Source: Sipunculus nudus (taxonomy: Eukaryota > Annelida > Sipuncula > Golfingiida > Sipunculidae). Taken from it: a DNA stretch of 64,000 nucleotides. The notes under the pieces were generated by a model. That model worked only from the letters and a program-made list of their open reading frames with translations, searched no databases and had not been told where the DNA came from. Shown one piece after another: positions 3,130 through 63,742 of this stretch. The stretch covers positions 67,109,917-67,173,916 of the forward strand of contig CM049319.1 in the NCBI GenBank assembly GCA_026874595.1, written 5' to 3'. The translations under genes and the position numbers were made by a program. Positions within the stretch are counted from its first letter, which is position 1, and each line of letters begins with the position of its first letter.

Positions 3130-4653
3130 ACAGTACCCCTTACAACGAGAGTTACTTACCTGGTCACAACAATGACGGGTTCATTCCCGATTATCAAAAC
3201 GCATGATGATGGTACCTCAATTGAAACACTCCTACAGTGTATCCGAAAGAAGAATGGCCTAACTATAATCCACTTAAATGTAAGAAGTCTTCCTCCCAAG
3301 TTCGACGAATTAGTGCTCCTCTTAAAGGTTGGTTAGGTCCATGTAGTATGTCTCACTGAGACTTGGTTGGACGATAGTATCGCAACCCGTGAAATCGAAA
3401 TCCCGGGGTATACTCTCTACCGAAAAGACCGAAATAGGCATGGTGGAGGTGTTGCCATTTATGTACAAAGTTCCTTGCAATCTACCGTATGTCCTTTTAT
3501 TTCTAATGATCATCTAGAAGTAATCTGGGTCCGAATTCAATGGAACAGACGTAACTCTCTGATCGGGTGTATATATAGACCGCCTCACTCTGACAAAAGT
3601 TATTTACAACTTCTCTTCGATAACATTAGCCTTGCTATGGCTAAACATGTTCATACAGTGATCATAGGCGATTTTAATATTGATTTTAATAACCCCAAAC
3701 CGTCTATAAATGTTGAGTTGGTGAATATGGCCACATCATACAACCTTCATCAACTTATAACCTCCCCAACTCGAGTCACCGCAACCTCATCCAGTACGAT
3801 AGATTTGATTTTTACAAATACACCCGGTATTCACTCATCATCCGGCGTTATTCCGTGGTCACTTAGCGATCATCATATTATTTTTACCCGGCTCTCAGGA
3901 GGCTGTTGCCAAAAAGGAACCAAATTTGTGAGAGTTAGGTCCTTTAAGAAATTTGATCCCCTTGCCTTCAAGCGGTCCATTCAGTCATCATTAACATTTC
4001 ACTGTCTTCCCGATGTAAATGATGTCATCTCAGCCTGGAATCTATGGCATGATGAATTTCTGACCATATGTAATAAACACGCATCTTTTAGAACGTTTAG
4101 AGTTAGAAATAATAGACACAATCCCTGGATGTCACCTGATATCCAGCGTCTAATATATAACCGAGAACGCATTCGTAAATCTGCTGTGTCAAATAATGAT
4201 CCACAGCTGTGGGCACAGTTCAGGCGGTTACGTAATCGGGTCACTTGCATGATCCGTCAACTGAAACGTTCCTATTATAGACACAAGGCACAGTCATCAA
4301 AATCTCCCAAGGAGATTTGGCAGTCTTTAAAACACGTGATCAATCCAGTTAGACGGGGTCAAGATAGTCCAGATCTAACTGCGGATGACCTGAATGACTT
4401 CTTTGCCTCAGTTGGAAAAACTTTAACTAAAGCATTTACCAAAGATGTTGTGCAGGACCAACCTGATTTTACTGATTCTCGGTTTTCAATCCCTCAAATG
4501 AGCCAACAGGATGTCGTGAAACTTCTAGTCGCATTTAAGAATAAACACGGAATCGATGTCCTCAATATGCCGGGGTTCTTACTTGGAGAGGCCGCGGTCA
4601 TCTTAGCGCCATCGCTGACACATATTCTTAACTTATCACTCAGTACAGGAATA
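3126..4653 (+). pseudogene. Non-LTR retrotransposon ORF2, 5' part: APE endonuclease and start of RT, cut by giant insertion
   Basis: ORF2 starts at the ATG overlapping the ORF1 stop. A frameshift near 3200 and a TAG at 3334-3336 interrupt its first 70 codons; downstream it is open to 4668. Endonuclease motifs appear in order: HLNVRSL (Asn at 3277), LTETWLDDS (Glu at 3358), GDFNID (3667-3684), STIDLIFTN and SLSDHH (3862-3876). A basic linker follows, then the RT N-terminus with FASVGK, FKNKHGID and APSLTHILNLSLSTGI. Translation runs five codons into foreign sequence after 4653 and stops (TAA at 4666-4668). The Ile codon ATA at 4651-4653 is the last retroelement codon, and the next expected codon (GTT, Val) is at 63743. 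The endonuclease, RT architecture and esterase ORF1 together suggest a CR1/L2-like element. Confidence 0.93.
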
Positions 4654-4664
4654 CCCTGCAAACA
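4652..4664 (+). repeat. Left TA duplication and terminal inverted repeat of giant element
   Basis: TA followed by CCCTGCAAACA; exact reverse complement of the right end. Confidence 0.88.
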
Positions 4665-4679
4665 ATAATGCGTTCTAAA

Positions 4680-6935
4680 AACGTCCTTACAACGTTTAAG
4701 TTAGGTTCGGATAACATTATTTTGAAACGTTCTGTGCACGCAAAAATGTATGGTTTTATGTACGGACTGTGAACGTAAAATGAGACGTTCGTTGCCGTTG
4801 TTTTTATTACGTGTTTGCAACGTTTTATCAAGTCGTTGTAGTTATGTTAAGAATACGTCTAATAAACGTTTGCTCCTAGTACAATGCTAACGTGTAAGCA
4901 ACATTTCTGTTAAAACGTTCTGTGCACGCAAAAATGTATGGTTTTATGTACGGTTTGTGAACGTAAAATCAAACGTTCGTTGTCGTAGTTTTTATAACGT
5001 GTTTGCAACGGTCATCAAGTCGTTGTAGTAATGTTAGGAAAACGTCTGATAAACGTTCGCTATTAGTATAATGCCAACGTGTAAGCAACATTTCTGTTAA
5101 AACGTTCTGTGCACGCAAAAATGTATGGTTTTATGTACGGACTTTGAACATAAAATCAAACGTTCGTTGTCGTAGTTTTTATAACGTGTTTGCAACGGTC
5201 ATCAAGTCGTTGTAATTATGTTAAGAATACGCCTTATAAACGTTTGCTATAAGTATAATGCTAATGTCTAAGCAATATTTCTGTTAAAACGTTCTGTGCA
5301 CGCAAAAATGTATGGTTTTATGTACGGACTGTGAACGTAAAATCAAACGTTCGTTGTCGTTGTTTTTATTACGTGTTTACAACGGTCATCAAGTCGTTGT
5401 AGTAATGTTAGGAAAACGTCTCAAAAACGTTTGCTCCTAGTACAATGCTAATGTGTAAGCAACATTTCTGTTAAAACGTTTTGTGCACGCAAAAATGTAT
5501 GGTTTTATGTACGGTCTGTGAACGTAAAATCAAACGTTCGTTGTCGTAGTTTTTATAACGTGTTTGCAACGGTCATCAAGTCGTTGTAGTAATGTTAGGA
5601 AAACGTCTGATAAACGTTCGCTATTAGTATAATGCTAACGTGTAAGCAACATTTCTGTTAAAACGTTCTGTGCACGCAAAAATGTATGGTTTTGTGTACG
5701 GACTTTGAACATAAAATCAAACGTTCGTTTTCGTGGTTTTCAGTACGTGTTTGCAACGGTCATCAAGTCGTTGTAATTATGTTAAGAATACGCCTTAGAA
5801 AAATTTGCTATAAGTATAATGCTAATGTGTAAGCAACATTTATGTTAAAACGTTCTGTGCACGCAAAAATGTATGGTTTTATGTACGGACTGTGAACGTA
5901 AAATCAAACGTTCGTTGTCGTTTTTATTACGTGTTTGCGACGTTCATCAAGTCGTTGTAGTAATGTTAGGAAAACGTCTCATAAACGTTTGCTGTTAGTA
6001 TAATGCTAACGTGTAAGCAACATTTCTGTTAAAACGTTCTGTGCACGCAAAAATGTATGGTTTTGTGTACGGACTTTGAACATAAAATAAAACGTTTGTT
6101 GTCGTTGTCTTTATTACGTTTTTGCAACGTTTCATCAAGTCGTTGTAGTTACGTTAAGAATACGTGTCATAAACGTTTGGTCTTTGTATAATGCTAACGT
6201 GTAGGAAACATTTCCCTTAAAACGTTCTGTGCACGCAAAAATGTATGGTTTTATGTACCGACTTTGAACGCGAAGCCAAACGTTCTTTGTTGCGTTTTTA
6301 TAACGTGTCCGCAATGTTTCATATAATCGTTGCAGTAATGTTGGGAATACGTCTAACCAACGTTTGCTCTTATTTATAATGATAACATGTAAGCAACGTT
6401 TCTGTTAAAACGTTCTTAGCACATACAAATGTATGTTTTTTTTGTACGGACTTTGAATGTAAAACCAAACGTCCTTTGTCATCGTTTTTATTACGTGCCT
6501 GCAATGTTTCATTAAATCATTGTAGTTATGTTTGGAATACGTCTCACCGACGTTTGTTCTTAGGTATAATGATAACATGTTAGAAACGTTTCTGTTAGAA
6601 CGTTCTTAGCACATACTAATGTATGGTTTTATGTACGGACTTTGATCGTAAACCCTAACGTTCTTCATAGTTTTTATTTCTTGTATGAAAAGTTTCACTT
6701 TATCTTTGTAGATACGCTGGGAATGTCTCATACATATTTGCTCTTAGTTTAATAAAGTGTGAGCAACATTTTTGATAACGTTCTTTGGTCACATAAATGT
6801 GGTTTTATCTACGGTATATTTAACGTAAGATAACACCTTCTTTGTCGACGATTTTCTCATGAATCTACAACGTTTCACCATGTTGTTGCAGTTACGTTGG
6901 GAATACATCTCATCAATGTTTGCTCCTAAGTATAA
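4680..6935 (+). repeat. Left subterminal satellite, about 12 units of 187 bp, ACGTT-rich
   Basis: The marker ACGTTCTGTGCACG recurs at 4727, 4915, 5102, 5289, 5476, 5663, 5850, 6034 and 6222, and in degenerate form at 6410, 6600 and 6778, giving a period of 184-190 bp (178 for the last). Each unit holds several AACGTT/ACGTTY words and a CAAAAATGTATGGTTTTATG core. Units near the terminus are almost identical; units from about 6200 inward are increasingly divergent and the array fades out near 6935. Confidence 0.92.
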
Positions 6936-7696
6936 TGATAACATATTAACGATATTCTTAAAACATAAAAAATGTATTGCTAAGGTACAAAAATACCGGA
7001 AATGGGGAAAGTGCTCAATGCCTGTATACTCGATTTATCCTAATATTTGTTCACTGGAGAAAGTCCATTGAAAAATTGTCTATATCAAGTTAACATTAAT
7101 TCTGTTAAACGGTTTCGAGTATTTTAACCAATATCTTGATGATTCAACAAGTTATCAACATGTTGACAATTCTTATGATCTGTCACCGACCGTGTGAACC
7201 GGCATGATTAATCCACATACATTAATACATTTTAAAAGAAAGTACATTGTACTTTATTTATACAGCACAGAGTAGGCTTTCATATAACTGGCAATACTTC
7301 AGTTTCTGGTTAGACCGCAGGTGTATTTTCCATTTCAGTCTGTGGAAGACATTTTCAATGAAGTGTTAAAATTGATGAGTGCATGTGCATAGCTTTAATC
7401 ATAAATCTGACCATGACACTGGTTTCCAGTCATATCTATTGTTTTCCGGCAAAAAATAGGAGATCATCCATTTGTCAAATCCATTTACCAACAGAAAGGT
7501 ACCAACCAAACGTTCTCTTCATGTATTCAACAAAATACTAAAAGACATTAAAATTATTTATTTATTTTACAACAGAGTCAGAGTACTTGTAGTACTCTCA
7601 GAGTTCAAGTATTTCTGTGTGATACCACTCTTGGTCCCTCTCAGCCTTTCTTCTTTCAGGTTTTACACGGCCTGTAAAAGAAAAGTAAGTTAATTG

Positions 7697-7758
<62 letters not shown>

Positions 7759-9364
7759 ATATATATATAAATGTTCAATTACTTTAAATCGACTTCATCT
7801 ATTTTGTATTCAGTAATTTCATAAGAGCATTGTTAAAGTTGCTCGTACTCTTCAAGTACTGGGAACAATACAAATCCTATTTTTATATATATTTATAGTC
7901 CAATACTTATTTAATGGCAGGAAAACATAGCATTCCTGCAAACTGTCTTACAGGACCCCCTTCCCCTTTATTCATGCATAACGACATACAGCGAACAACT
8001 ATAGGTGTTTCTACACTGCAAAAGTCACCCAGGCATCATTCCAGCTGACTGATATATTGGTACTGGCTACAATATTTGTTGTACTGGTTGTCTTGAGGAA
8101 CTCTACAAATTCTGTAAAATAAGCCAAAAAGGCCATAGTGACCTTATCACCCATGTGGTGATCCAATGATTACAATTAGTGCCCTGCAATACATCCAAAT
8201 TCCACAGGTTGAGTGAATGAAAATTTGTAACAGAAATTTAAACACATGGATCTCAACTTGTAATTAATGGATTAGTAATTTCAATAAATGAGTTAATACT
8301 ATTCTGTCCAAAAAGTGTGAAATGGGCAAAATGATAATTTAAAAAAAATTGATATGGTCAATCTCTACCCAGGTCTGAAAAAAGAATGTCCGAGGTTAAA
8401 ACCCATTGATTAACCATTAAGTACTATATAATATATGCTGAAACTTCAATTGCTTTTTCCGTTTGTGTTTTTTACAAAACAAATGACGCTCATGGTTCAT
8501 GACACTCAGCATGATGACATGCTGACAATATGTCCATGCACAGGCAACAAATTAAGATAATATAGGTGGTATCATCATTCATGCATATTAGCATAAGTTC
8601 ATCAAGACTCATTAGCACACCAAATTTGATAAAAATCCATCCAGCCATTTATGAGGAATCCGGCAATTTGTGTGTAATTTGTATTATTTCTGGGTGCTCA
8701 AACATGCTCCGCAACTCTTCACAGTGACCTGATATTAGCATGACGCTACATCCCCATTAAAAATCTTGGACAAAATTCTGGGTTCCTCCCACCCTACTGC
8801 TACTTAATAGGCCATCATTGAAGTAATCAGTTGATACAGACCTGATCAGCAGTGTGATAATGATCCCAGTGGGGAGCCATTAATCACTGCCGAACTACTT
8901 TTTTTGGTTTGGGGTGGGGGGTTGAAAGGGACAGGGAGAAAAGCTTGTCAATTTTGCTTCATAAAGTTTTATGGAATACAAATGGGGGAAAATATTTTTG
9001 ATCAAGACATGCTCAGGAGTCACAGAGTTTATTGTTTAGAGCAAGGGAAATAGAATGTGTTCCTAAAAGAAACAGTGTGGGTATCTAGATAGTGTAGAAA
9101 AACATGACTACATGGGACAATTATGATTGCACAAACTGGTCCCACAAATCATGCCAAACAGTGACAACTTTTGGAAAGAGGAAATACTGTGCACAATGCT
9201 TGAAATGACTTGGATCATGTTTACGACACGTGGTTGCATTTTTAAATCAATGTCAACCCAATATGCATGGTATAGGTAGACTACAATGAGACCTAAATTA
9301 TTTAGGTATGTTCGGTATAGAGACTTAATTTGGATCTATAATGTCCTCAGTCAGCTTTATTTCC
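6936..9364. other. AT-rich sequence without recognised genes
   Basis: Apart from the (AT)n tract I find no supported gene or repeat. Short open frames (for example 7472-7693) show no family motif and are judged accidental. Confidence 0.5.
7699..7769. repeat. (AT)n microsatellite
   Basis: About 70 bp of nearly pure AT dinucleotide. Confidence 0.95.
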
Positions 9365-9571
9365 CAGGAGCGGATCAATGGGGAGGGTCCAGGGGGGCCC
9401 GGGGACCCCCCCCCCCCTTTTTCAGCCATCGCAACCTTTTTTTAAGGGTTTCTGACCTATTTTTGCGGCCTGGACCCCCCTTTTTCGAACCTGGGGACCT
9501 TTTTTTTAGCTTTTGTCATTTGTCCTCTTGTGTTGGACCCCTCCTTTTCCTAAATCCTGGATCCGCCCCTG
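9365..9571. mobile_element. hAT-like MITE with CAGGRGCGGATC ends
   Basis: The left end CAGGAGCGGATC and the right end GATCCGCCCCTG are imperfect inverted repeats. The interior is G/C- and C/T-tract rich (GGGGGGCCCGGGGACCC). Elements starting CAGGGGCGGATCC are common hAT-type MITEs in marine invertebrates (from memory). I do not see a clean 8-bp target duplication, so boundaries may be off by a few bases. The 97-codon open frame across it is low-complexity and not a gene. Confidence 0.55.
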
Positions 9572-10585
9572 TTTCTTAGGTAAGAAGGAGGAGATTATGA
9601 TACAGGCAGGACCATAATGGATTATAGGGAGTTTATGTTGATATGGCATCAGATGAAGTATTAATAGTAAAACTATAGTGTTTTGTAGTTGTATTTTTGT
9701 ATGTTTGTGTCTGAATTATGAGAATGAAAGCGAGGTAGTTAATGTTTAAGTTAGTACTTTGCAATGATGCAACAAATATATTCTAATTATGAGTTGTCTC
9801 AATGATATTAACTGATTATGTGTGTAAGCTGACACTTTATAAATGAATTTATAATAATAGTCAACGCAAAGTGCTGTGTTAATTCAAACAACAATGTTGT
9901 TCTTTATTTCTTTTAAACTATATTTATCGCAATTTTAGAAGTTTTCATCCTATATCCCTGATTTCAAAAGTGCTAGAATATAGTACATAGTGTTTTACTG
10001 TATAATAATTTTAGGTTTACACTTTACAAATGTACTTAGCTTATCAATTTCATATAGTATTGATTTTTTACGAGCCAATGTTTATCAGCTGAATAATTAT
10101 ATGCACAAGATACATACTTATTTATTAAAGGGTGTGCTATCATGATTCTTTAGGTCTTTAGTGAAAAGTGATGCTCTTATGTATTAAAATATTTTAAAGT
10201 AAATTTATAACAATTCTGTAAGTTCTAGATCTTTGCAAGTGCTTGAATATAATATCTGTGACAGTGCTTCAATGTAGTTATAACTATTTTTCTGTGAGAT
10301 TTATGTATATTTATGTATTAATGTGTGTCTGCCTCATGATTGTGAATTATGACTATTAAAATGGTTTCGTTCAGTGTTAAGGGTGCCCAATCCCCTATAA
10401 AGCATGTTGAATTTACATGAAAAATAGCTTCCTCCCTTTAAAATAATTGTATTACATGTTCCCCCTGCCCTGAGACCATTTGCCTAAAAACAGTGGACTG
10501 GGCGCGATCGAAGGTATCAACAAGAACATAGTGCGTTGAACTCTGTGCATAGCTGAGCCACGGCTTTCTCAGGAGAACTTTTGAG
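9572..10585. other. AT-rich sequence, nothing recognised
   Basis: No open frame with family motifs and no clear repeat structure. Confidence 0.5.
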
Positions 10586-11330
10586 AAACCCTCAGAATGT
10601 CAAGTAAGAAGATTCTATGTCCAATGGTTATGAATTGTGCCCTGCTTTGGTATCAAATTTTCAATTATTCTGGGGTGAGCTTATAAGCCCCAAAGCAAGG
10701 AGAATATATGTAACTGAGACCTAATTTCTAGTTTGCAAGAAGAGTTTTTCATCAACCTCCCTGGATTTCAAGTAAGAAGATTCTAGGACCAACGGTTACG
10801 ATTTGTGCCCTGTTAACGGATGACCACATGTTTAAAGGTGTCAAAATAGAGAAAAAATGTGTTAAATTTGAAAAAAAAATACAAGTGGCGCCACCAGTCT
10901 GCAGGAAATGATGAAACACTCCATGTTCAATATGCATGCAAAGAATCATGGTGATCAATGCAATAGTTGTTCAGATACTGGTGCTTTTGTATCAAATTTT
11001 TAATATTCTGGGGGTGCTTCTGACCTGGGCATAGCTCATAGGATATGGACAACAGTGACCTAGTTTCAGGTTTCAAAGGAGACTTTTCATGGACTTCCCA
11101 GGATGTCAAGTAAAATATTCTAGTTCAAGTAGTTATGATTTGTGCCCTGTTGACAGATGACTGCATCTTTAAATAAACAGTTGAAACACTCCATGATGAA
11201 GATGCATGCACAGAATCATGGTGATCAATGCATTAGTGTTCAGATACTGGAGCTTTTGTATCACATTTTTTTATTATTCGGGGGGGGGGGGGGGTTATTA
11301 TTCCTCATGACCTCAGATTCAATAAAGTTC
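10586..11330 (+). repeat. Diverged tandem repeat, roughly 200-350-bp units
   Basis: The phrases TCAAGTAAGAAGATTCTA and GGTTAYGATTTGTGCCCTG recur near 10599, 10768 and 11106, with a shared tail (GAATCATGGTGATCAATGCA) near 10944 and 11213. A related fragment occurs at about 24590-24640, so this is also a dispersed family. A G-run follows at 11280-11294. Confidence 0.6.
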
Positions 11331-11887
11331 TTACATAAGTAAGTAAAGTATAAAATCCATGTCAACCCAAACTGGAGTTACCATCCAGAAACAAATTTTT
11401 GGAAGGACAAACATGGTGATTACTGTAGGGCAGCCAGATGAAACCAAAGTTACTGTAATTATTGACCTGATTGTGTCAATACATTTTTTATTTTCAAAAT
11501 AAAAGAAATGCATTAAAAACAAAAAAAAATACAGGCGGCAACACCTGTCCTCAGTAGAGGAAGAAACAGTCAAGATAAACATCTCTCAGCTGAGTTTTGG
11601 AAAATTATTTCTTTGGGGTTTTTTTCATATATATTAGCATTTGTAAAACTAAGAGGAAAAGGCCCTGCTAAGATGAAACCTTATAAATTATAGAATATGG
11701 ACATGAGCAAAGCATAATAATAAACATTAATTTTTCAACTGAGATAAAATGCTGTAAAAATTTGGTATAAATTGCATATGCACTGTTTAATAAATGAAAC
11801 TTGAGGCTTGAAACCATTAAATGATGCAACAAGGAATAAATAGGCCTAAGTGTTATATGAAAGGATACAGTTCATAGACAAACAATT

Positions 11888-13059
11888 AAGGGACCCATGG
11901 GTCACATCACTCAGCTGAATTTTGGAAAATATTACCAAATGCAAAATAAATTTTGGTTTTTGATAAATATATTAGCAGTTGATAAGCTATGAGTAAATGG
12001 CCCTGCTAAAATGAAACTTTTTTTTTTAAAAAAATTACAGAATAACTGACTTGAGCCAAAGTTTAATAATAAACATTAAAATATCAACTGAGATAAATTG
12101 CTGGAAAAATTTAAATGAGCATGAACAAAATTTAATAAGTATGTTTAAACAAGCCAATTAGGTATATATAAATTGCATTTGCACTGTGTTATAAACAAAA
12201 CTGTTTAATGATGCAATAAGGCAAACATGGGCCTAAATGTTATATGAAAGGATACATTTCATAAACGAAAGATGTGTGAATTTTATTAAATTTTATTTAT
12301 CTTATTAAGGTTTCAATAGTTAAATAAATGGCAATATGAGCTAAAAATTAATACCACGAATATTTGCCCAATATTTCTGATTTACAGTGTTATTCATATC
12401 AAAGCCCTGCCAACTTAATATATTAGAGCTATGAATGAAGAACTACAAAGTATTTATATCTAATTTAATCTTAAATGTCAATGATCACTCACACTAGATC
12501 CAAATATTTTATCAAATATTTTATTAGCTGAGCTAAAAAAACATTTCATGGCCAAGGTTGATTTTTATATTTATGCAAATAAATTAAAAATATTGCAAAA
12601 TTCAGTTTTAATAAAGTCATTTTCATTTTTCATGGTTAGTGAGTAAATATATTTCCTGATTTTTTTTACAAAGTGCATTATGTGTGGGCCCATGACTTAA
12701 AAAATATAAAGCAATACTGACATAATATCTGGTATGATTAGAGGAAATATATAGAGGAACATGAAATATGATCAAAAACAGATCAGTGGTTTTTATATCA
12801 GGCAGCCTTGAATTTAGTGCAACAATGGGTTTTTAATGGAAAAATGAGGTTTTTCCTTAATATCTCAAAGGAATGAATGTCATAGTGACTCGATATTGGA
12901 TATGGTAGGAGATTTTTTAGACATCTAACTGTATGCCAAATTTTGGATTCATAGGTCCAAGAGTTTTAAATTATGCCGTGTTCATGGCCAGATGGCCAGA
13001 GAGATGGACAAGGGACCATGACTATAGCTCAGATGACTAACAGTCAGCTGAGCTAAAAA
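11888..13059 (+). mobile_element. Copy A of the GACCCATGGGTC / terminal-hairpin repeat family
   Basis: The 5' end is AAGGGACCCATGGGTCAC, then CTCAGCTGA. The 3' end is the hairpin AGCTCAGATGACT / AGTCAGCTGAGCT followed by AAAAA. It contains only decayed AT-rich sequence and no coding motif. A short related stretch immediately upstream (11585-11880) and one downstream (13062-13400) look like truncated copies. Confidence 0.7.
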
Positions 13060-13061
13060 TG

Positions 13062-13400
13062 TGTGTATGTAATCAAGTTTTCAATATTTAAATATAAGGC
13101 CATATGAGCGAAAAAATAATCCCATATTCCTGATTAACTAAGTAAATAATAGTTTTATTCATATCAAGGGCCAGTCGACCTTAAGAGAAATGAATGAAAT
13201 GTTAATAATGAATTATCTCTCACTAAATCTTAAAATATGTCGGTGAGCACTTACATAAGTTTCTAATATTTTATCACATTTGAATATTAGGATTCAAATC
13301 CTGCAAATTTTTCAAGTCTCAACAAAAAAATTAATACAGAAATTATAAGAATATTCATCTTGTTTATTAGTCCTGTGTATTGAACGGGTGTGTTGGGGGA
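13062..13400 (+). mobile_element. Truncated internal fragment of the hairpin-end repeat family
   Basis: Phrases such as TTATTAGTCCTGTGTATTGA and AATAATCCCA...ATATTCCTGA match internal parts of the copies at 18527 (near 20226) and 41379 (near 43070). Confidence 0.5.
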
Positions 13401-15136
13401 GGAGAAGTACCAAGCATGTGCGAAAATGTTCAGTTTTAACCCGGCACATTGGTAAAACCCTTGGCATGTTTGTTGAATTTATGACGGCATGAATACAAGC
13501 ATGGCTCGTACAGGTTACAATAGGCAGGCAGCTTGCATACAATACAGGAAATGACCCGTGTCCATGGAGACAGTGTTTCAGTTTGGGTTGTGAGCTCACA
13601 TGTATACTACTGTTTTAATTCATCATTCTTAGCATGATATTGAGATTATGGGCAGAACGTTTACCACAATATGAATGCAACCTGATGCAAGACCACTGCG
13701 ATGCATTCCTTGATATTACTTGTATCACAACTCGAGTAGGCTTACCAGCCCAATTATCCAATTGCCTACTGAGGCTGGTTGTCACGGCTAGGAAAATGAT
13801 GGCAACCACTAATTTGCATCTTAGAGAATTTTATGCAATAAAAGTGTCAATGTACACGATCTCTGATATAATACTGCTGAGTAAGATATTCTTCCTTAGG
13901 TCCTGAAACTGCAAAAATATTTTATCCAGACATGAATGTATGGTTCCCCTGTCATACTGCTGGACAAAAACATTGTACCCTAGAAGGTATCAATTTTTTT
14001 TTTTGGGGGGGGGGGGACCTGATCTATTCTGTTGCACTGATATTGTAGTAATTAGATATTCAACCATGATACAGAGGGATTGACCAATACTCTCGGTTAG
14101 TAGATGTTGTTAGAAAGTATACTAAAACAGCTAATGATCGGTCTGGTTTATGTTAAGTGGTGAGGTATTTGCTTCTTCAAAAGCACATGCAAAAAGAATC
14201 ACATATCATGCACCCTGGCTTGTGGAAACTGTGGGGGCTCTAGCTGCATATAAGGTTGCCAGTGGTCAGGGAAAGGAAAGGGAAAATATTATGTTTTCAA
14301 GGGCAGGGAAATGTCATGGAATTTCAAAAAAAGTAATTGGATTTTCTGATGATTGTATGCAAGGGAGAAGTCGGAATTTTAATGGCTTATATGGCAACTG
14401 CAGTTGATTATCCAACAGGAAGACCTTTTCATCTCATGAGCCAGGATTCAATAATTTCATACTACATTTTTATTTTCCTTTCAAATATTGTTGTGTTATG
14501 TAAGTAGATTAAATCTTAAATCCCTTTGATTTTTGAACATACATATTGACTGATGATGCAGAGCATGGATACACAAAATGTATGCATATAGCACCAACCA
14601 TCAATGAAAGGTCACCTGTTTCTTAGCAGTAATACAGAACTAATATTTAGTACTAGTAAAACATTTTATGCAAGGACATGAATCTGACCAGGTAACAAAC
14701 TAGAAAGGCAGAACACAGTGCAGTTACACTGATCCATAGAAGTCATTCGTTGTTATTGTATGATAAATTTATAAACATGATTTATGCTAGATAACAAAGT
14801 GAATCTTTTTTTAAATGATACATTGTCATTCCAAATTTCTAGTTTCAGATTGCTTTGCTTTACAGTTACAATTTTTCAAATAAACATTTGGTTTGTGTTA
14901 GCAGTAGAATGACATTTCCTAGAGGGAATTTAAATTTTGTGGGTTAGTTTATCCCTGAAAATCAACTAAAAGTCCAGGAACAGTCAGGTAAAAGTCCAAG
15001 ATTTTTTTCAGAGTTGACTGCTGGCAACCCTGTGAATAACTCACACAGACACTTTGTGATAAGAATCGAAAGAGGATGTCTAATTTAAATTGTAATCATT
15101 ACACATCTGCATGATTTTACTGATATGGTGATTAAA
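13401..15136. other. No recognised gene
   Basis: Open frames on both strands (13312-13599 minus, 13634-13906 plus, 14150-14407 plus) have no recognisable motif and overlap each other. There is a short G-run near 14005. Confidence 0.45.
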
Positions 15137-51091: not shown

Positions 51092-51122
51092 GCGCTGAGT
51101 GCTGTGACCAATGGGTCCCTTG
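51092..51122 (-). mobile_element. Isolated 5' end of the hairpin family, minus orientation
   Basis: GTGACCAATGGGTCCCTTGT with the inner CTGAG motif is the reverse complement of the family start. I did not find the matching 3' hairpin at lower coordinates, so the copy is truncated or rearranged. Confidence 0.55.
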
Positions 51123-51695: not shown

Positions 51696-51776
51696 TGGCA
51701 GTCCAGCTATGTCTTCTGGTAGCTCACCTACTCCATCCAACTTATCAAGGTCATCAACTCGACACAGGCCTACCAG

Positions 51777-52125
51777 CTTCTGTGGCTCAGGGGTAGAGTT
51801 CAGGACTCGAAGCCAGGAGATCATGAGTTTGAATCTAAGCCAGGTGGTGAGATTTTATCACGGTTGGCTCCCACCCAGGGTTAGCGCTGTGAAAGCTAAA
51901 TGGGGAGACTTTGCCTAACAGTCATGTTTCACTGAAAAATGAGTGCACCTTTCGGGGGTTCCTTGGTGTTGTGACCAAGCAATGGGGATGACAAACACCA
52001 AGGGCCCGCAGGAGTGTTACACCGAGCCCTGTTGACACCAGGATAACTGGGTATAAGCCCCTGTCATGTAGTCCAGAATAGAACTCTGCAGATGTACTTA
52101 GTAATAGTTAAGCAAGCATAAGATT
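51777..52125 (+). mobile_element. tRNA-derived SINE
   Basis: The head looks like a decayed tRNA with an A box, TGGCTCAGGGGTAGAG (near 51782), and a B box, GTTTGAATC (near 51829), at normal spacing. A tRNA-unrelated body of about 280 bp follows. The intact pol III promoter boxes, weak cloverleaf and long body favour a SINE over a tRNA gene. The 3' boundary is approximate. Confidence 0.65.
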
Positions 52126-52795
52126 ACCTCCACCAAATAAAAAATGTAAAAAAAACTCCACTGGACAGCAGCAGCGAGTTATAGATTTGTTGGCAAAGCG
52201 TAACCATGAGTACATCACAGCTGCCATACAGCCTTCAGACAAAGTCTGCACCATATCCAGCTTTCTACTTCTCAGCTATGTCTTTGCCTGCTGTATCCTG
52301 GTGAATGGGAATAAAGAATGGGAGCCCTACTCTACCTGCAGGGTTTGCGGAGTTAGTATTGAACCTCCACACAGCATATGCATCCTCCGTATCCATACAA
52401 TGGGCTGTCTCAACCATGGGTGTGGTTCAGTCAAAACTTCGAAAAGGTTCATTGTGGAACATACAAACAAGCTTGTATCTACTTACAGGATGCTGCGTAG
52501 AAACCATGTTTTGGACTATTGGATTCACTGTGTTCTATGAAATATGTCTAAACTATCTGAGTGTGTAAATATTGAACAACAATGTGTGCTTAATGAACAA
52601 CTGATATATATTATTCAGTGGTTCTCTGTATATATGCTTATTTACTATGTTATATATTATTAATAAAAGGTTGTGGGAACCTGTGGGAAAAAGAGTTTCT
52701 TCCCTGACTTTTTTTTCTTCCCCGAAATTTCCTTTTCTTCCCTGAGAAGGGGAAAATACCTATCTTCCCAACAGGTTTGCCAACCCTGTACTTAG

Positions 52796-54525
52796 TACAA
52801 CGGTAAAAACCTGGGTTTAACCCAGGTTGGGGTAAAATAAGTTTTACCGGGGTTTTACCAAAGTTTTCATAAAAAATTTCATCAAAGTTTAAATAAAATG
52901 CTCTTATTTTTTCATACTCGATGAAAATTGACACAGGTAACATGTAAACAGGTAAACAACCAATTCATTTAATGTTTTTATCATGGTCAATTTTACTCCA
53001 TTTCAGTCTGTCCCAGCCAAGGACAGACTATTCTGTTCTACCTAGCCCTAGCACCTGTGCTCTCTTACTACGCTAAGCTGTGCAAGAGCCCTAGAAGATG
53101 ATTTGAGGAAACTGGTGCCATTCCACATGACAATTAAATTCTGATATTTCGTCTAAAAATGTCGTATTCGTTAGGAAATAAAGATATTCTAATCAAATAC
53201 GCATATAACATACCACTTAGACAGTGTTTGTCCACTTCAAATGTTGATTAGAAGAATATGTATTATCCTATATAAACGGTGATACACAGGTAATGATGTG
53301 TGCTCTGGGTTTTCCCCCAGCCACAGCTGGCCGGCAGCCGCCTGTGTAACCAGTGGTAACGGGCCGTGTTGGCTCAGCGAGCAAAGGTCAGGCAGTTCAT
53401 TGTTTCAGATTCTGAGACAGTTTCAAGCGCAAGGGTTGCAAAGTTTTAAAAGTGAGTCTTGTTTACATACTAAAACATAATATTTATCTGAATTTCTTGG
53501 TCATTGGAATAAAGTACTATATCTCCCTCAGATTACTTACAGTTTCCTTGTCATAAACGCAATATTTGATTTTACACGATTTTTTTCCGACAAGGGTTTG
53601 AAGTTCTCCAGTTTACTCTGAAGCTTTTTATGCGGTATCCAGAGTCCTGGATACGCCGCATTTAATGCAGTTATGTTCTACCCTGCACTTCTAGGGATAT
53701 GGTCTTTGACTATGTCCGGGTTGGCTGTAATTGCCCTAAACCTTTGTGGTGGAATCAACAACTAGGATTCTCCTTTCATGCGTAATTGTTTATGCAGACA
53801 GCTAGCAGCGCGAATTGGAATATTGTGTCTTTGGACGAGGCAATCTAAACCAAAGACATACTTTCATAAAACTTGACCTGAGCGATAATAAAAGATCGAA
53901 GAAACTTTCTTATCATATGGTCATTATTACTCAATTTGAAGAGAATATTTTTATGGGTTTTCGCATACCTAAGAAAACAGTGATGTGCCTGAAGACATTA
54001 GCTGGTTACATTGGCCTAGATGGGCCTGTTGTCATACTATATACTTACCGAAGGAGCCAACGACCACGTCCTGCCTGCCCGCAGATTCATATTTCCCGCC
54101 AGCACAAAGTAAATGCCGAAATCGTAACCTCCTATCATATCCAAATATTTTCTTTTAAACTTGGACGATAGGTGCTTTGAAACTTTTTACCCGCCAAATT
54201 CACAAGTTTGTTACGCCTGTAGACATGGGTAGGAAAATATATATGAAAAAGTGTCAGGTTCATTTTATTTATCGTCTATTTATAAGCCACCTTCCCCAGA
54301 TGGAACCACTCTCCACATCATGAATAATGACTTAGAATGGCACACACACACTGAACTATGGAACAAACATTATAACCATAGTTATTAATAGGATATATAT
54401 ATATATGTTTTGTGTGATTTGTACAATAGATTAAATGACATCCATTGGGGATTTTTTTTTTAAATTGCATGTAAAATTATAAAAAATAGGAATGTTTACA
54501 TATAACATGCATATTACAAAAATCA
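52796..54525. other. No recognised gene; unplaced 118-codon frame at 53815-54171
   Basis: 52800-52870 is rich in inverted GGTTTTACC / GGTAAAACC words. A frame at 53815-54171 has mixed composition but no family motif I recognise, and nothing upstream supports a promoter. GC is locally higher near 53310-53390. Confidence 0.4.
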
Positions 54526-54529
54526 TCCA

Positions 54530-57500
54530 TACAGACTCAACATTGGCTGTATAAATTTGGAGTTTTGGTCTAAATTCTGTGTTATTACACTGATTGGTCT
54601 GAAATGTTTGGGCTGAAGTAAACCCTTGGGGAAATTACATACAAAAATGGGAGAGGTGGCTGAGTTTGTGTGCCAATAAGGTGCGAAAAATGGATTTTTA
54701 GCATTTGACAGGGCTTTTGTGCACATGATCAGGTTAAAATTCAGCTAGGGTGTTCAAAATGCAGGATTTTACTGATACTTTGGTGAACATACATGGTTGC
54801 AATTTGCATATGGCTCCTGTTAATACCTACCATTTTGAGGTATCCTTTAAAGTGTTTTCATCTGTACCGACTCAACTTGGCTTTAATACATGTGGTGTCT
54901 TGAGCTAAATTCTGTGTTATTTGGCTGATTAGTCTGAAATGTTTTGGGCTGCAGATGACCCCTTGGAGAAATATGTATACAAAAATTGGGAGACCTGGCT
55001 GTGTTTTTGTACCAATGAGGAGCAAAAATGGATTTTTAGCACTTTACATGACTTTTTGTGCATATGATCAGGTTTAAATTCAGCTAGGGTGTTCAAAATG
55101 CAGGATTTTACTGATACTTTGGTGAACATACATGGTTGCAATTTGCATATGGCTCCTGTTTATACCTACCATTTTGAGGTATCCTTTAAAGTGTTTTCAT
55201 CTGTACCGACTCAACTTGGCTTTAATACATGTGGTGTCTTGAGCTAAATTTTGTTATTTGGCTGATTAGTCTGAAAAAGTTTTGGGCTGCACATGACCCC
55301 TTGGAGAAATATGTATACAAAAATTGGGACACCTTGCTGTGTTTTTGTACCAATGAGGAGCAAAAAATGGATTTTTAGCAATTTACATGGCTTTTTGTGC
55401 ATATGATCAGGTTAAAATTCAGCTAGGGTGTTCAAAATGCAGGATTTTACTGATACTTTGGTGAACATGCATGGTTGCAATTTGCATATGGCTCCTGTTA
55501 ATACCTACCATTTTGAGGTATCCTTTAAAGTGTTTTCATCTGTACCGACTCAACTTGGCTTTAATACATGTGGTGTCTTGAGCTAAATTCTGTGTTATTT
55601 GGCTGATTAGTCTGAAAAGTTTTGGGCTGCAGATGATCCCTTGGAGAAATATGTATACAAAAACTGGGAGACCTGGCTGTGTTTTTGTACCAATGAGGAG
55701 CAAAAATGGATTTTTAGCACATTACAAGGCTTTTTGTGCATATGATCAGGTTAAAATTCAGCTAGGGTGTTCAAAATGCAGTATTTTACTGATACTTTGG
55801 TGAACATACATGGTTGCAATTAGCATATGGCTACTGTTAATACCTACCTTTTTGGGGTATCCTTTAAAGTGTTTTCATCTGTACTGACTCACCTTGGCTT
55901 TAATACATGTGGTGTCTTGAGCTTAAATCTGTGTCATTTGGCTGATTAGTCTGAAAAGTTTTGGGCTGCAGATGACCCCTTGGAGGAATATGTATACAAA
56001 AATTGGGACACCTGGCTGTGTTTTTGTACCAATGAGGAGAAAAAATGGATTTTTAGCACTTTCAAGGCTTTTTGTGCGTATGATCAGGTTAAAATTCAGC
56101 TAGGGTGTTCAAAATGCAGGATTTTACTGTTTTTTTTTGTGAACATACATGGTTGCAATTTGCATATGGCTACTGTTAATACCTACCATTTTGAGGTATC
56201 CTTAAAAGTGTTTTCATCTGTACCGACTCAACTTGGCTTTAATACATGTGGTGTCTTGAGCTAAATTCTGTGTTATTTGGCTGATTAGTCTGAAAAGTTT
56301 TGGGCTGCAGATGACCCCTTGGAGAAATATGTATACAAAAATTGGGACACCTGGCTGTGTTTTTGTACCAATGTGGAGCAAAAAATGGATTTTTAGCACT
56401 TTACATGGCTTTTTGTGCATATGATCAGGTTAAAATTCAGCTAGGGTGTTCAAAATGCAGGATTTTACTGGGTTTTTTTTTTGTGAACATACATGGTTGC
56501 AATTTGCATATGGCTCCTGTTAATACCTACCATTTTGGGGTATCCTTTAAAGTGTTTTCATCTGTACTGACTCACCTTGGCTTTAATACATGTGGTGTCT
56601 TGAGCTTAAATCTGTGTCATTTGGCTGATTAGTCTGAAAAGTTTTGGGCTGCAGATGATCCCATGGAGGAATATGTATACAAAAATTGGGGGAGCTGGCT
56701 GTGTTTTTGTACCAATGAGGAGCAAAAAATAGATTTTTAGCACTTTACATGGATTTTTGTGCATATGATCAGGTTAAAATTCAGCTAGGGTGTTCAAAAT
56801 GCAGGATTTTACTGTTTTTTTTTGTGAACATACATGGTTGCAATTTGCATATGGCTCCTGTTAATACCTACCATTTTGGGGTATCCTTTAAAGTGTTTTC
56901 ATCTGTACTGACTCACCTTGGCTTTAATACATGTGGTGTCTTGAGCTTAAATCTGTGTCATTTGGCTGATTAGTCTGAAAAGTTTTGGGCTGCAGATGAT
57001 CCCATGGAGGAATATGTATACAAAAATTGGGGGAGCTGGCTGTGTTTTTGTACCAATGAGGAGCAAAAAATAGATTTTTAGCACTTTACATGGCTTTTTG
57101 TGCATATTATCAGGTTAAAATTCTGCTAGGGTGTTCAAAATGCAGGATTTTACTGATACTTTGTTGAACATACATGGTTGGAATTTGCGTATGGCTCCTG
57201 TTAATACCTACCATTTTGAGGTATCCTTTAAAGTGTTTTCATCCGTACCAATTCAAATTGGCTTTAATACATGTGGTGACTTGAGCTAAATTCTGTGTTA
57301 TTTGGCTGATTAGTCTGAAATGTTTTGGGCTGCACATGACCCCTTGGAGAAATATGTATACAAAAATTGGGAGACCTGGCTGTGTTTTTGTACCAATGAG
57401 GAGCAAAAATGGATTTTTAGCACTTTACATGACTTTTTGTGCATATGATCAGGTTAAAATTCAGCTAGGGTGTTCAAAATGCAGGATTTTACTGATACTT

Positions 57501-58300
57501 TGGTGAACATACATGGTTGCAATTTGTATATGGCTCCTGTTAATACCTACCATTTTGAGGTATCCTTTAAAGTGTTTTCATCTGTACCGACTCAACTTGG
57601 CTTTAATACATGTGGTGTCTTGAGCTAAATTTTGTGTTATTTAGCTGATTAGTCTGAAAAGTTTTGGGCTGCACATGACCCCTTGGAGAAATATGTATAC
57701 AAAAATTGGGACACCTGGCTGTGTTTTTGTACCAATGAGGAGCAAAAAATGGATTTTTAGCACTTTACAAGGCTTTTTGTGCATATGATCAGGTTAAAAT
57801 TCAGCTAGGGTGTTCAAAATGCAGGATTTTACTGATACTTTGGTGAACATGCATGGTTGGAATTTGCATATGGCTCTTGTTAATACCTACCATTTTGAGG
57901 TATCCTTTAAAGTGTTTTCATCTGTACCGACTCAACTTGGCTTTAATACATGTGGTGTCTTGAGCTAAATTCTGTGTTATTTTGCTGATTAGTCTGAAAA
58001 GTTTTGGGCTGCAGATGACCCCTTGGAGAAATATGTATACAAAAACTGGGAGACCTGGCTGTGTTTTTGTACCAATGAGGAGCAAAAATGGATTTTTAGC
58101 ACTTTACAAGGCTTTTTGTGTATATGATCAGGTTAAAATTCAGCTAGGGTGTTGAAAATGCATGATTTAACTTATCTTTTGGTGAACATATACAGGATTG
58201 CAGATTGCAGATGGCCACTGTTAATACTTGCCGTTAGGGGGCGTCTTTAAAAAAGGGAATTTTAGCATTTAACAGGGCTTTTTGTGCATATGATTAGGTT
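54530..58300 (+). repeat. Tandem array of about 11 units of about 340 bp
   Basis: GATCAGGTTAAAATTCAGCT recurs at 54727, 55066, 55405, 55744, 56082, 56423, 56766, 57107 (GATC changed to TATC), 57447, 57787 and 58126, spaced 338-343 bp. Other landmarks are GAACATACATGGTTGCAATT, TTTAATACATGTGGTGTCTT and TTTTGTACCAATGAGGAGCA. Terminal units are shortened and diverged. Frames of up to about 96 codons recur in several units but the period is not a multiple of three throughout. Confidence 0.95.
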
Positions 58301-58699
58301 AAAATTCACCTAGGGTGTTGAACATGCAGAATAATACTGATATTTTGGTGATTATACATGGTTGCAATTTACATGTGGCCGCTGCTAATAAATCCTGCTG
58401 CTCACAAGTGGCTGTGATAAATGTATTTTGGATAACCTTTGATCTATATACTTGTAATTACAATTGTGTAGCGTGCTTTTTAACAACATTCACCGCTTTT
58501 CAATGTGTCTGATACTTTGCGTTTATCTGCCGGAAAACGTCGGTAATATATCCATATACACAACATGTTGGGTGCAACATACTGCAAATGTTTCAGTGAC
58601 GTTTAACGTTATATTACTGAGTATGGGAGACAACAGATATTTCACGTCCTTTACACGTTTAATGTATGTTGCATGCCGTATAATATAAAACCACATTGT

Positions 58700-61600
58700 G
58701 ATTGGTGGCTAATTTGCAACGTTAAGGATACATACATAAAAATCTGTATTTTCATCAGCTTTACATTGTGCACCGTATTGTATATAAAACCGTATATTAA
58801 TGTTTGAAATAACGTTGTGTATATTTGTAATTTAAACATATTGAACCGACTAATTTGCAATGTTTAACATACGTTAATTTTACGTGCCAAAACAACGTCG
58901 CAAATGTAATCACACGCACGAAATGTATAACGTTATGTGTTACATATAGCAAACGTCTCTATAACATTTCCTAATATGTTATACTTTCCGACTTTTAGGA
59001 CGTCCAATAAAACGTTCTCAGCATGTGTCAAATACGTTGTATACAGCGCAGTAGAAATCTGTATTTTCACCTGTTTTAGATTGTGCACCATAACGTATAT
59101 ATAACAGTATATCTATATTTTAAATAACTTTGTGTACATCGAAAATTACATTCACAGACCCGACTAATTTGCAATGTTTAGAATACGTACATTTTACGTG
59201 CAAAACAACGTCGCAAATGTAACCATATGCACAACATGTGAAACGTTGTGTGTAACATTTTGCAGACGTCTCTTCGACATTGCCTAAAATGTTATACTTC
59301 CGGGTATTGCAGACGTTCACCATAACGTTCCCAACATGTTTCTTGACCGTTGTATACAGCGTCGTAAAAATCCGTATTTTCATCAGCTTTACATCGTGCA
59401 CCGTATCGTATATAAAACCGTATATTAATGTTTGAAATAACTTTGTGTATATTTGTAATTTAAACATATTGAACCGACTAATTTGCAACGTTTATGATAC
59501 GTCCATTTTACATACCAAAATATCGCAAACGTAACTACATACACAACATGTGAAACGTTATGTGTAACATTTCGCAGACGTCTCTTCGACATTGCCTTAA
59601 ATGTTATACTTCCGAGTATTGCAGAAATTCAAAGTAACGTTCTCAGCATGTGTTAAATACGTTGCATACAGAACAGTAAAAATCTGTATTTTCAACAGTT
59701 TTAGATTGTGCACCATAACGTATAGATAACAGTAATCTATATTTCAAATAACTTTGTGTATATTTGAAAATTACAATCACAGACCCGACTAATTTGCAAC
59801 GTTTAGGATACGTACATTTTACGTGCAAAACAACGTCGCAAATGTATCCACATGCACAACATGTGAAACATTATGTGTAACATTTTGCAGACGTCTCTTC
59901 GACATTGCCTAAAATGTCATACTTCCAGGTATTGCAGACGTTCACCGTAACGTTCCGAACATGTTTCTTGACCGTTGTATACAGCGTCGTAAAAAATCTG
60001 TATTTTCATCAGCTTTACATTGTGCACCGTATCGTATATAAAACCGTATATTAATGTTTGAAATAACGTTGAGTATATTTGTAATTTAAACATATTGAAC
60101 CGACTAATTTGCAATGTTTAGGATACGTTAATTTTACGTGCAAAAACAACGTCGCAAATGTAACCACACGCACAACATGTATAACGTTATGTGTTACATT
60201 TTGCAGACGTCTCTATAACATTTCCTTGTATGTTATACTTTCCGACTTTTAGGACGTCCAATAAAACGTTCTCAGCACGTGTCAAATACGTTGTATACAG
60301 CGCAGTAAAAATCTGTATTTTCACCTGTTATAGATTGTGCACCATAACGTATATATAACAGTATATCTATATTTTAAATAACTTTGTGTATATTTGAAAA
60401 TTACATTCACAGACCCGACTAATTTGCAATGTTTAGGATACGTACATTTTACGTGCAAAACAACGTCGCAAATGTAAGCCATATGCACAACATGTGAAAC
60501 GTTATGTGTAACATTTTGCAGACGTCTCTTCGACATTGCCTAAAATGTTATACTTCCGGGTATTGCAGACGTTCATCATAACGTTCCCAACATGTTTCTT
60601 GACCGTTGTATACAGCGTCGTAAAAATCTGTATTTTAGCAGCTTTACATTGTGCACCGTATCGTATATAAAACCGTATATTAATGTTTGAAATAACGTTG
60701 AGTATATTTGTAATTTAAACATATTGAACCGACTAATTTGCAATGTTTAACATACGTTAATTTTACGTGCCAAAACAACGTCGCAAATGTAACCACACGC
60801 ACAAAATGTATAACGTTATGTGTTACATATAGCAAACGTCTCTATAACATTTCCTAGTATGTTATACTTTCCGACTTTTAGGACGTCCAATAAAACGTTC
60901 TCAGCATGTGTCAAATACGTTTTATACAGCGCAGTAGAAATCTGTATTTTCACCTGTTTTAGATTGTGCACCATAACGTATATATAACAGTATATCTATA
61001 TTTTAAATAACTGTGTATATTTGAAAATAACATTCACAGACCCGACTAATTTGCAATGTTGAGAATACGTACATTTTACGTGCAAAACAACGTCGCAAAT
61101 GTAACCATATGCACAACATGTGAAACGTTGTGTGTAACATATTGCAGACGTCTCTTCGACATTGCCTAAAATGTTATACCTCCGGGTATCGAAGACGTTC
61201 ACCGTAACGTTCCCAACATGTTTCTTGACCGTTGTATACAGCGTCGTAAAATCTATATTTTCATCAGCTTTACATTGTGCACCGTATCGTATATAAAACC
61301 GAATATTAATGGTTGAAATAACGTTGTGTATATTTGTAATTTAAACATACTGAACCGACTAATTTGCAATGTTTAGGATACGTTAATTTTACGTGCAAAA
61401 ACAACGTCGCAAATGTAACCACACGCACAACATGTATAACGTTATGTGTTACATTTTGCAAACGTCTCTATAACATTTCCTAGTATGTTATACTTTCCGA
61501 CTTTTAGGACGTCCAAAAAAAGTTCTCAGCATGTGTCAAATACGTTGTATACAGCGCAGTAAAAAATCTGTATTTTCACCTGTTTTAGATTGTGCACCAT

Positions 61601-63420
61601 AACTTATATATAACAGTATATCTATATTTTAAATATCTTTGTGTATATTTGAAAATTACATTCACAGACCCGACTAATTTGCAATGTTTAGGATACGTAC
61701 ATTTTACGTGCAAAATAACGTCGCAAATGTAACCATATGCACAACATGTGAAACGTTATGTGTAACATTTTGCAGACGTCTCTTCGACATTGCCTAAAAT
61801 GTTATACTTCCGGGTTTTGCAAACGTTCATCATAACGTTCCCAACATGTTTCTTGACCGTTGTATACAGCGTCGTAAAAATCTGTATTTTCATCAGCTTT
61901 ACATTGTCCACCGTATCGTATATAAAACCGTATATTAATGTTTGAAATAACGTTGAGTATATTTGTAATTTAAACATATTGAACCGACTAATTTGCAATG
62001 TTTAGGATACGTTAATTTTACGCGCCAAAACAACGTCGCAAATGTAACCACACGCACAACATGTATAACGTTATGTGTTACATATAGCAAACGTCTCTAT
62101 AACATTTCCTAATATGTTATACTTTCCGACTTTTAGGACGTCCAATAAAACGTTCTCAGCATGTGTCAAATACGTTGTATACAGCGCAGTAAAAATCTGT
62201 ATTTTCACCTGTTTTAGATTGTGCACCATAACGTATATATAACAGTATATCTATATTTTAAATAACTTTGTGTATATTTGAAAATTACATTCACAGGCCC
62301 GACTAATTTGCAATGTTTAGGATACGTACATTTTACGTGCAAAACAACGTCGCAAATGTAACCATATGCACAACATGTGAAACGTTATGTGTAACATTTT
62401 GCAGACGTCTCTTCGACATTGCCTAAAATGTTATACTTCCGGGTATTGCAGACGTTCACCATAACGTTCCCAACATGTTTCTTGACCGTTGTATACAGCG
62501 TCGTAAAAATCCGTATTTTCATCAGCTTTACATTGTCCACCGTATCGTATATAAAACCGTATATTAATGTTTGAAGTAATGTTGAGTATATTTGTAATTT
62601 AAACATATTGATCCGACTAATTTGCAATGTTTAGGATACGTTAATTTTACGCGCCAAAACAACGTCGCAAATGTAACCACACGCACAACATGTATAACGT
62701 TATGTGTTACATTTTGCAAACGTCTCTATAACATTTCCTAATATGTTATACTTTCCGACTTTTAGGACGTCCAATAAAACGTTCTCAGCATGTGTCAAAT
62801 ACGTTGTATACAGCGCAGTAAAAATCTGTATTTTCACCTGTTTTAGATTGTGCACCATAACGTTTATATAACAGTATGTCTATATTTTAAATAACTTTGT
62901 GTATATTTGAAAATTACATTCACAGACGCGACTAATTTGCAATGTTTAGGATACGTACATTTTACGTGCAAAACAACGTCGCAAATGTATCCATATGCAC
63001 AACATGTGAAACGTTATGTGCAACAATTTGCAGACGTCTCTTCGACATTGCCTAAAATGTTATACTTCCGGGTATTGCAGACGTTCACCATAACGTTCCC
63101 AACATGTTTCTTGACCGTTGTATACAGCGTCGTAAAAATCTGTATTTTCATCAGCTTTACATTGTCCACCGTATCGTATATAAAACCATATATTAATGTT
63201 TGAAATAACGTTGCGTATATTTGTAACTTAAACATATTGGACCGAAACTTTGCAATGTTTACGATACGTCCATATAACGTGCCGAAAAACGTCGCAAACC
63301 TAACCGCATGCGCAACATAAAAAACTTTTAATGCAACGTTTCTTAAACGTCCGTTTGCCGTTTCCAATAATATTTTACTTTAGAGTAGTTAGGACGTTAA
63401 GTATAACGTTCGCACCATGT
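58700..63420 (+). repeat. Right subterminal satellite, about 15 units of about 314 bp in A/B dimers
   Basis: ACGTCGCAAATGTAA-type markers occur at 58894, 59208, about 59519, 59833, 60149, 60463, 60778, 61090, 61404, 61718, 62033, 62347, 62661 and 62976, and in degenerate form near 63288. From 60149 onward units alternate between an A type (CCACACGCAC, then ATAACGTTATGTGTTACA) and a B type (CCATATGCAC, then GTGAAACGTTATGTG). This gives a higher-order period of about 628 bp. ACGTT words are frequent throughout, as in the left array. Confidence 0.92.
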
Positions 63421-63729
63421 TTTACAAATGTTTTTAAACAATATTGCAGAATAAGGAACCTGATCGAAATTCAGAACGTGCCCATTAACGTGTACATAAC
63501 GTTTGATGTACGTTACATAATAACAATACAATGCGTTTTAACCAAAGGCGTTTTGGAAGTACAGGACAACGTTCTTTTAATGTAAATACAAGGTTATATT
63601 AAAACGTTACATAAAGTACCTTGGACGGACGTTCCTGTATTTCAATATGACGTAAACTTGACGTTGCCTGCACGTTTCTAAATAATGTTATGACCTGTAA
63701 CTTTCCACGAACGTTAGGTTTACGTACTG
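63421..63729. other. Right subterminal unique region of the giant element
   Basis: Diverged ACGTT-rich sequence between the last array unit and the right terminal repeat; includes ATAATGTTAT (63682-63691), which pairs with ATAACATTAT at 4711-4720. Confidence 0.6.
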
Positions 63730-63742
63730 TGTTTGCAGGGTA
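63730..63742 (-). repeat. Right terminal inverted repeat and TA duplication of giant element
   Basis: TGTTTGCAGGG followed by TA; exact reverse complement of the left end. Confidence 0.88.

Follow-up and report, generated by a model that had tools for sequence, protein, structure and literature searches.

Can tens of kilobases of DNA without recognised genes move through a genome as a single transposon? This question is raised by a stretch of 64,000 nucleotides from the annelid Sipunculus nudus (C14:67109917-67173916 in a 1.43-Gb assembly of 153 contigs; "the window" denotes this whole stretch), in which a retrotransposon gene is interrupted by a unit of 59,087 bp (4654..63740, + strand) bounded by terminal inverted repeats (TIRs). 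We conclude that this unit is very probably a giant TIR DNA transposon that is apparently non-coding and non-autonomous, and for which a DDE-type transposase acting in trans would be supplied from elsewhere. It belongs to a family whose copies have constant, unlike ends with the same first 11 bp, are flanked by 2-bp duplications, move as blocks and carry passengers.

Boundaries and insertion site of the window element

The unit starts with the 11-bp sequence CCCTGCAAACA (4654..4664, + strand), which is present at the left ends of 35 paired copies, and closes with its exact inverted counterpart (63730..63740, - strand), which is found at 45 right ends genome-wide. The dinucleotide TA is read on either side (4652..4653 and 63741..63742) and represents the target-site duplication here, as the search with the joined site described below supports. 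A first-pass annotation, made from the letters of the window, had proposed just such a TIR-bounded element of 59,087 bp, and its borders stand. By itself, the window gives no firm case for the 11-mer, which matches 3 times with one mismatch or none where 1.22 matches are expected. The ends are proved elsewhere in the genome, namely by the 45 right ends, the 35 two-ended copies and a sister copy on contig C6.

The interrupted sequence is a retrotransposon without long terminal repeats (non-LTR), with its endonuclease side at 3337..4651 (+ strand; Pfam PF03372 in the left flank) and its reverse transcriptase side at 63743..64000 (+ strand; RVT_1, PF00078, with the joined site as further evidence). 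The PF00078 match in the right flank has an E-value of 6.7e-6 and 26.4 bits against a cut-off of 29.6, and the gene extends past the window edge. When the flanks are joined with a single TA, the open frame ...LSLSTGIVPPDWKCARVVPIYKG... is regained. Moreover, this 191-bp joined (empty) site is matched at 99-100% identity by 40 of 40 scored genomic places (the best 40 of 81 candidates). Of these matches, 39 span all 191 bases and one spans 189; target spans equal query spans, and two matches are at 100%. Hence, the insertion was precise and the target retrotransposon family is young. The proposal that the element precisely interrupts a reverse transcriptase gene, and that empty copies of this gene should be sought, is thereby borne out.

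The interrupted retrotransposon itself (window 2461-4651 and 63743-64000) represents a young non-LTR family with a GDSL-like open reading frame (ORF), an endonuclease and a reverse transcriptase. The GDSL-like ORF at 2461-3129 lies upstream of the endonuclease side and scores slightly under the Pfam cut-off.

A genome-wide family with paired ends

In all end and interior-probe searches, the best 40 candidates were scored. Right ends were found at 45 places at up to 3 mismatches, while the reversed-pattern control gave 0. Among the left ends listed (the best 40 of 51 candidates), correctly oriented partners were found for 35 of the 45, at distances of 47,488 to 96,456 bp. These paired copies have a median length of 64,185 bp and add up to 2.30 Mb, or 0.16% of the assembly. 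They begin and end at the same base, and the flanks that were read vary between copies. An interior probe of 1.4 kb (23700-25100) matches at least 40 loci at 92-100%, of which 32 fall within paired copies, one in each of 32 out of the 35, and the remaining eight lie in unpaired or rearranged places; a second probe (26200-26700) likewise has at least 40 loci at 92-100%. The genome search for other copies that the first-pass annotation had called for thus returned a family, and the possibility that left and right ends always belong to two different short elements is contradicted by the 35 linked pairs. No short left-right element is present among the end matches listed, all 35 pairs being at least 47 kb long.

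The first genome search used the pattern TACCCTGCAAACA (TA included), for which 100 of 102 places were listed. A cluster at C3:43.68 Mb and hits at C4:27.64, C6:22.99 and C7:23.59 Mb were rejected as family members, as they look like unrelated satellite units of about 191 bp. The other single hits of this pattern that were read have no family end, except C6:75.18 Mb, which is a family left end.

The flanking dinucleotides are identical in 34 of the 35 paired copies: TA in 9, TT and AT in 7 each, AA in 4, TC and CA in 2 each, and AC, GT and GC in one each. The nine TA copies were found via the TA-containing pattern and hence are TA by selection. The other 26 pairs were chosen from ends without TA, so that their non-TA status is given by construction, and 25 of these 26 match exactly; the chance of at least 25 identical 2-bp flanks among 26 is about 1e-27 at 35% GC content. 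For a TA rule, only the mix of all 35 pairs is informative, with TA perhaps somewhat over-represented there. The rule of the family is therefore a 2-bp duplication that is sequence-tolerant and mostly A/T. The description of the element as TA-duplicating has to be given up: TA is the dinucleotide of the window copy.

Movement as one block

Relative to the window copy, a sister copy of 58,568 bp at C6:16739470-16798037 has 68 mismatches over 58,453 aligned bases (99.88% identity) and 22 gaps in a MAFFT alignment. Its flanks are unrelated to those of the window copy, and it is bordered by an AA duplication instead of TA. Both of the longest gaps, of 593 and 72 bp, fall inside the internal satellite. 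Megablast puts the identity lower, at 98.7% and 99.1% in two collinear rows, which we think reflects register slippage in the satellite. As a near-identical sister lies elsewhere, with other flanks and another duplication, the 59-kb unit including its nested elements and satellites has recently moved as one block, and a false join in the window copy is unlikely.

More distant copies have the same organisation. The C9 copy is collinear with the window at about 93-98% outside satellites, with stretches missing on either side (alignments of at least 200 bp, satellite rows thinned). The C12 copy (47,488 bp) has about 34.6 kb in common with the window at 84-96% (forward collinear pieces of at least 100 bp), and identity is fairly even along the core, with a mean of 92.7 per 100 bases. 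One stretch of the window (16813..22909) is absent at the same place from both the C9 and the C12 copies.

Terminal arrays

Next to the left TIR lies a subterminal array of a 187-bp unit (11.9 copies; 4725..6942, + strand), and next to the right TIR an array of a 314-bp unit (14.6 copies; 58737..63318, + strand). Both are rich in AACGTT, the densest palindromic hexamer at the element ends: the 7,295 bp of the termini contain it 77 times (35 in 4654-6943 and 42 in 58737-63740), the 39,358 bp of core 4 times. Since the two arrays share only short stretches of 20 and 39 bp, it is this hexamer, and not the repeat units, that is common to both ends. From this correlation, the arrays are probably binding platforms for the transposase or a cofactor.

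A pattern consisting of the 11-bp end and two AACGT motifs has 60 matches in the genome, versus 1 in the control. Besides the ends of the family, these include diverged left-type ends on C3, C6 and C10 that are related to them. The left-type end at C3:57204100-57210300 (L093) has an AACGTT array of 2.3 kb with about 76% identity to the giant's left array. Its interior has no notable match to that of the window (among the matches listed), and it probably belongs to a second family. At C6:105844-111000, a left-type end including its flank is duplicated as a palindrome with arms of 2.1 kb at 96.7% identity, and a right end of the giant family lies 7 kb away (C6:117152-117182). Pfam searches on ORFs from two of the related ends (L093 and L094) gave no result.

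Interior, satellites and passengers

Between the arrays, the interior (6943..58736) is without recognised genes, and probes taken from it match the same sequence in other copies. It contains a 74/152-bp satellite array (31419..39589, + strand) and a tandem array of a 339-bp unit (54523..58227, + strand). A nested element of 4,221 bp (44674..48894, + strand) has the ends CCCTTAC...GTAAGGG and a 2-bp duplication TT, and its empty site is present in the C12 copy. A second copy lies inside the C9 giant (45697-49940 counted from C9:65725704) with the duplication AA. Among the 35 paired giants, 24 contain the end of this 4.2-kb element (24 of the best 40 hits among 419 candidates). For this reason, the element probably entered an ancestor of the giant and was then multiplied by its later jumps; the three copies compared for its relative position, in which it is the same, are the window, the C6 sister and C9. 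The passenger has the same signature as the giant (CCC..GGG ends and 2 bp, in two cases) at an ordinary size; its longest frame has 121 amino acids (aa).

Samples from the C1 copy (93 kb) are mostly the 74-bp satellite or known interior: four of them, taken across about 23 kb, consist of this satellite, and another falls at its edge. Of ten samples from the C14 copy of 96 kb, two are satellite, two match repeats or sequence found only in C9, and two (L096, L099) match nothing in the copies read. The idea that these two longest copies are autonomous versions was not borne out by the samples. The C9 element contains a nested reverse transcriptase ORF of 419 aa (39465-40721 of the element) in a stretch without window counterpart. 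Length variation among copies is satellite growth together with nested insertions carried along by later jumps, as the first-pass annotation had suggested when it considered an element inflated by both.

Coding capacity and search for a transposase

No ORF of 150 aa or more is present inside the window element. A Pfam scan of the 150 longest ORFs (at least 55 aa) outside the arrays gave no convincing match (best E-value 0.007) and, in the same set, neither a viral domain nor a tyrosine recombinase. A virus-like element, which was also considered, thus finds no support in these ORFs. Likewise, Rfam at gathering threshold and a tRNA search of the unit gave no match. Comparison of 148 ORFs with the C12 copy shows that 92 align over at least 90% of their length, 65 of which carry indels, and that 19 of the 92 stay open and ungapped. 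The pooled ratio of non-synonymous to synonymous differences (pN/pS) is 0.72 for the 92 alignable ORFs and 0.57 for the 19 open ones. As judged from these frames, the unit has no clear coding signal and may be under weak constraint at most, with short exons possible.

As a candidate partner, EnSpm-type transposase (PF02992) was found at 7 loci, four of which were read over 10 kb, none with the 11-bp end. The EnSpm/CACTA-type loci on C5, C8, C12 and C2 (L118-L121) have open frames of 549-973 aa. A genome search for Plavaka (PF18759) returned 0 matches, with controls equally silent. In its essentials, the earlier picture is supported: a single mobile unit of very large size, bounded by TIRs, with satellites at its ends and without a visible transposase.

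Comparison with known transposon systems

Two of the features by which TIR DNA transposons are recognised, inverted repeats at constant borders and a duplication of fixed length (2 bp in 34 of 35 pairs), were found. Statements on published systems refer here to the excerpts consulted of the sources cited. An assignment to Tc1/mariner or ISL2EU, for which the first-pass annotation had noted TA duplications, is not supported. The 2-bp duplication resembles Tc1/mariner, and it is TA in the window copy and eight others, but 25 of the 34 exact duplications are not TA. In ISL2EU/PHIS, AT is duplicated within A|AT|T (PMC4482050); the giant family shares the length of 2 bp with ISL2EU, yet it uses nine dinucleotides, with AT in only 7 of the 34.

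CACTA/EnSpm elements have short TIRs with subterminal repeats, and piggyBac has a 4-bp TTAA duplication. The CACTA/EnSpm and CMCT clade has duplications of 2-5 bp with CA..TG ends in most members, and PlavakaA has a duplication of 2 bp with TGT..ACA ends (PMC12730594). The giant family is like this clade in its short TIRs, its subterminal repeats and a duplication within this range. However, the family ends are CCC..GGG and not CA..TG (CAC), by which EnSpm/CACTA is set apart. At the four EnSpm-type loci read, no such transposase was linked to the family. Ends of the type 5'-CC..GG-3' are known from piggyBac (PMC10045372) and are a point of likeness, but the giants have 2-bp duplications of many sequences and not TTAA. 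Polinton/Maverick with its 6-bp duplication (PMC10045372) is set apart by the 2 bp found here, and so is Kyakuja (KDZ), with a 7-bp duplication and CA..TG ends in the described families (PMC12730594), by 2 bp and CCC..GGG.

Teratorn, Starships and Polintons encode their own enzymes and many genes, and miniature inverted-repeat transposable elements (MITEs) are below about 1 kb in length. The giant family is a giant mobile unit like the former, in which, however, no genes were recognised. With MITEs it shares TIRs, a constant duplication length, the lack of recognised coding capacity and, presumably, movement in trans, but it is one to two orders of magnitude longer (47.5-96.5 kb). To our knowledge, DNA transposons without genes are expected to be short; the giant family is far larger than gene-less elements of its kind are usually thought to be. 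Giant KDZ, EnSpm and Sola-1 elements of the brown alga Ectocarpus have maxima of 15.2-30.3 kb and carry genes, their nested insertions are fixed among copies, and some families are without a transposase gene; transposition of a 31.7-kb KDZ element in Chlamydomonas is also mentioned (PMC12477816). The giants described here are similar in being large DNA transposons with nested insertions common to copies and, as in some of those families, no recognised transposase gene. They differ in their size (47-96 kb), the absence of recognised genes, the CCC..GGG ends and the 2-bp duplications. Transposition efficacy drops above 6 kb of cargo, although artificial cargoes of 100-200 kb were nonetheless moved (PMC6431247). 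Judged by title and start of abstract, none of the papers listed in searches of the open-licence PMC literature, on giant DNA transposons and on 2-bp duplications, presents a comparable family.

Alternative explanations

Several observations weigh against a giant non-autonomous transposon. Ten of the 45 right ends lack a partner among the left ends listed, and these may include further pairs. One of the 35 pairs (C12:37.09 Mb) has unequal flanks, CC and TC. Three places show family ends or interior in an unexpected order; five of the 19 open ORFs, with 3-13 changes each, have a pN/pS of 0.12-0.23; correlation is the sole argument for a role of AACGTT; and neither a transposase nor an autonomous partner was found in searches of the best 40 candidates and at 4 of the 7 EnSpm-type loci. 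The odd order or orientation concerns C17:10.52-10.57 Mb, C2:56.30-56.35 Mb and C3:63.86-63.89 Mb, which are perhaps inversions or assembly errors. At C1:89.49 and 89.82 Mb, interior matches lie about 323 kb apart, both 92% identical to the window. No ends are listed for either, and an old copy may have been duplicated locally here.

How far do these points favour other explanations? Of the alternatives, a macrotransposon, in which two short elements trapped host DNA and the enlarged unit then spread, is rather doubtful, although sequence common to the left and right arrays is limited to short stretches and a related left-type end on C3 has a different interior. All 35 pairs are at least 47 kb, no short left-right element is among the matches listed (10 right ends being unpaired), and no source locus of the interior appears among the best 40 probe matches. 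Less probable still is an autonomous giant that encodes its own transposase in short, spliced or unrecognisable exons, or in some other copy. Room for it is left by the extent of the analysis, which covered four copies read at length (the window, C9, the C6 sister and C12), 20 samples in the two longest copies and frames of at least 55 aa; by the 19 short ORFs whose frame is also open in the C12 copy, five of them with a low pN/pS on few changes; and by the two C14 samples that match nothing read. Against this stand the lack of a 150-aa ORF and of a convincing Pfam domain in 150 ORFs, the indels in 65 of 92 alignable ORFs, the pooled pN/pS of 0.72 and the fairly even identity of the core.

Two further mechanisms are very improbable. 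A site-specific serine or tyrosine recombinase could insert a circular form at matching dinucleotides, so that the 2-bp identity at the borders would be the crossover dinucleotide, and giant fungal Starships do use a tyrosine recombinase, according to the excerpts consulted. However, nine different dinucleotides occur in the family, and the near-identical sisters lie at TA and AA. A conservative recombinase is thus unlikely, since its crossover would keep a single dinucleotide. Segmental duplication or ectopic exchange of a 60-kb block with chance inverted repeats at its borders can practically be set aside, even if the two C1 loci resemble a local duplication and three places look rearranged. 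The borders lie at the same base, the flanks that were read differ, 2-bp duplications are present in 34 of 35 pairs, and the empty site of the window insertion is found in 40 scored retrotransposon copies; for the two-ended copies, the duplications and the empty site refute it.

Proposed mechanism and significance

For a giant non-autonomous transposon, a mechanism may be outlined as follows. A DDE-type transposase from elsewhere would bind, at either end, the TIR and the AACGTT-rich array, and the arrays may aid synapsis of the ends. After excision, the unit would be joined to a cut with a 2-bp stagger, and repair or replication of the donor site would raise the number of copies. Between the ends there would be little constraint, so that the unit could swell by passenger insertions and array expansion and still stay mobile. 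There is a real chance that the giant family is a new superfamily. As a possible, still tentative extension, an undescribed superfamily with CCC..GGG ends and sequence-tolerant 2-bp duplications might include both the 4.2-kb family and the giant, the latter with kilobase-sized AACGTT platforms for loading transposase. If this is true, the enzyme could pair ends 50-100 kb apart and mobilise almost any DNA between them.

Annotation pipelines would probably split such units into satellites and fragments and hence miss them. The family also makes it a testable question which features of transposon ends allow pairing over long range. In this young family, blocks of 50-100 kb of apparently non-coding DNA are moved by ordinary-looking ends, which shows that cargo genes are not needed to cross the size barrier. 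For the genome of Sipunculus nudus, the giant family represents a means for satellites and other transposons to spread as passengers.

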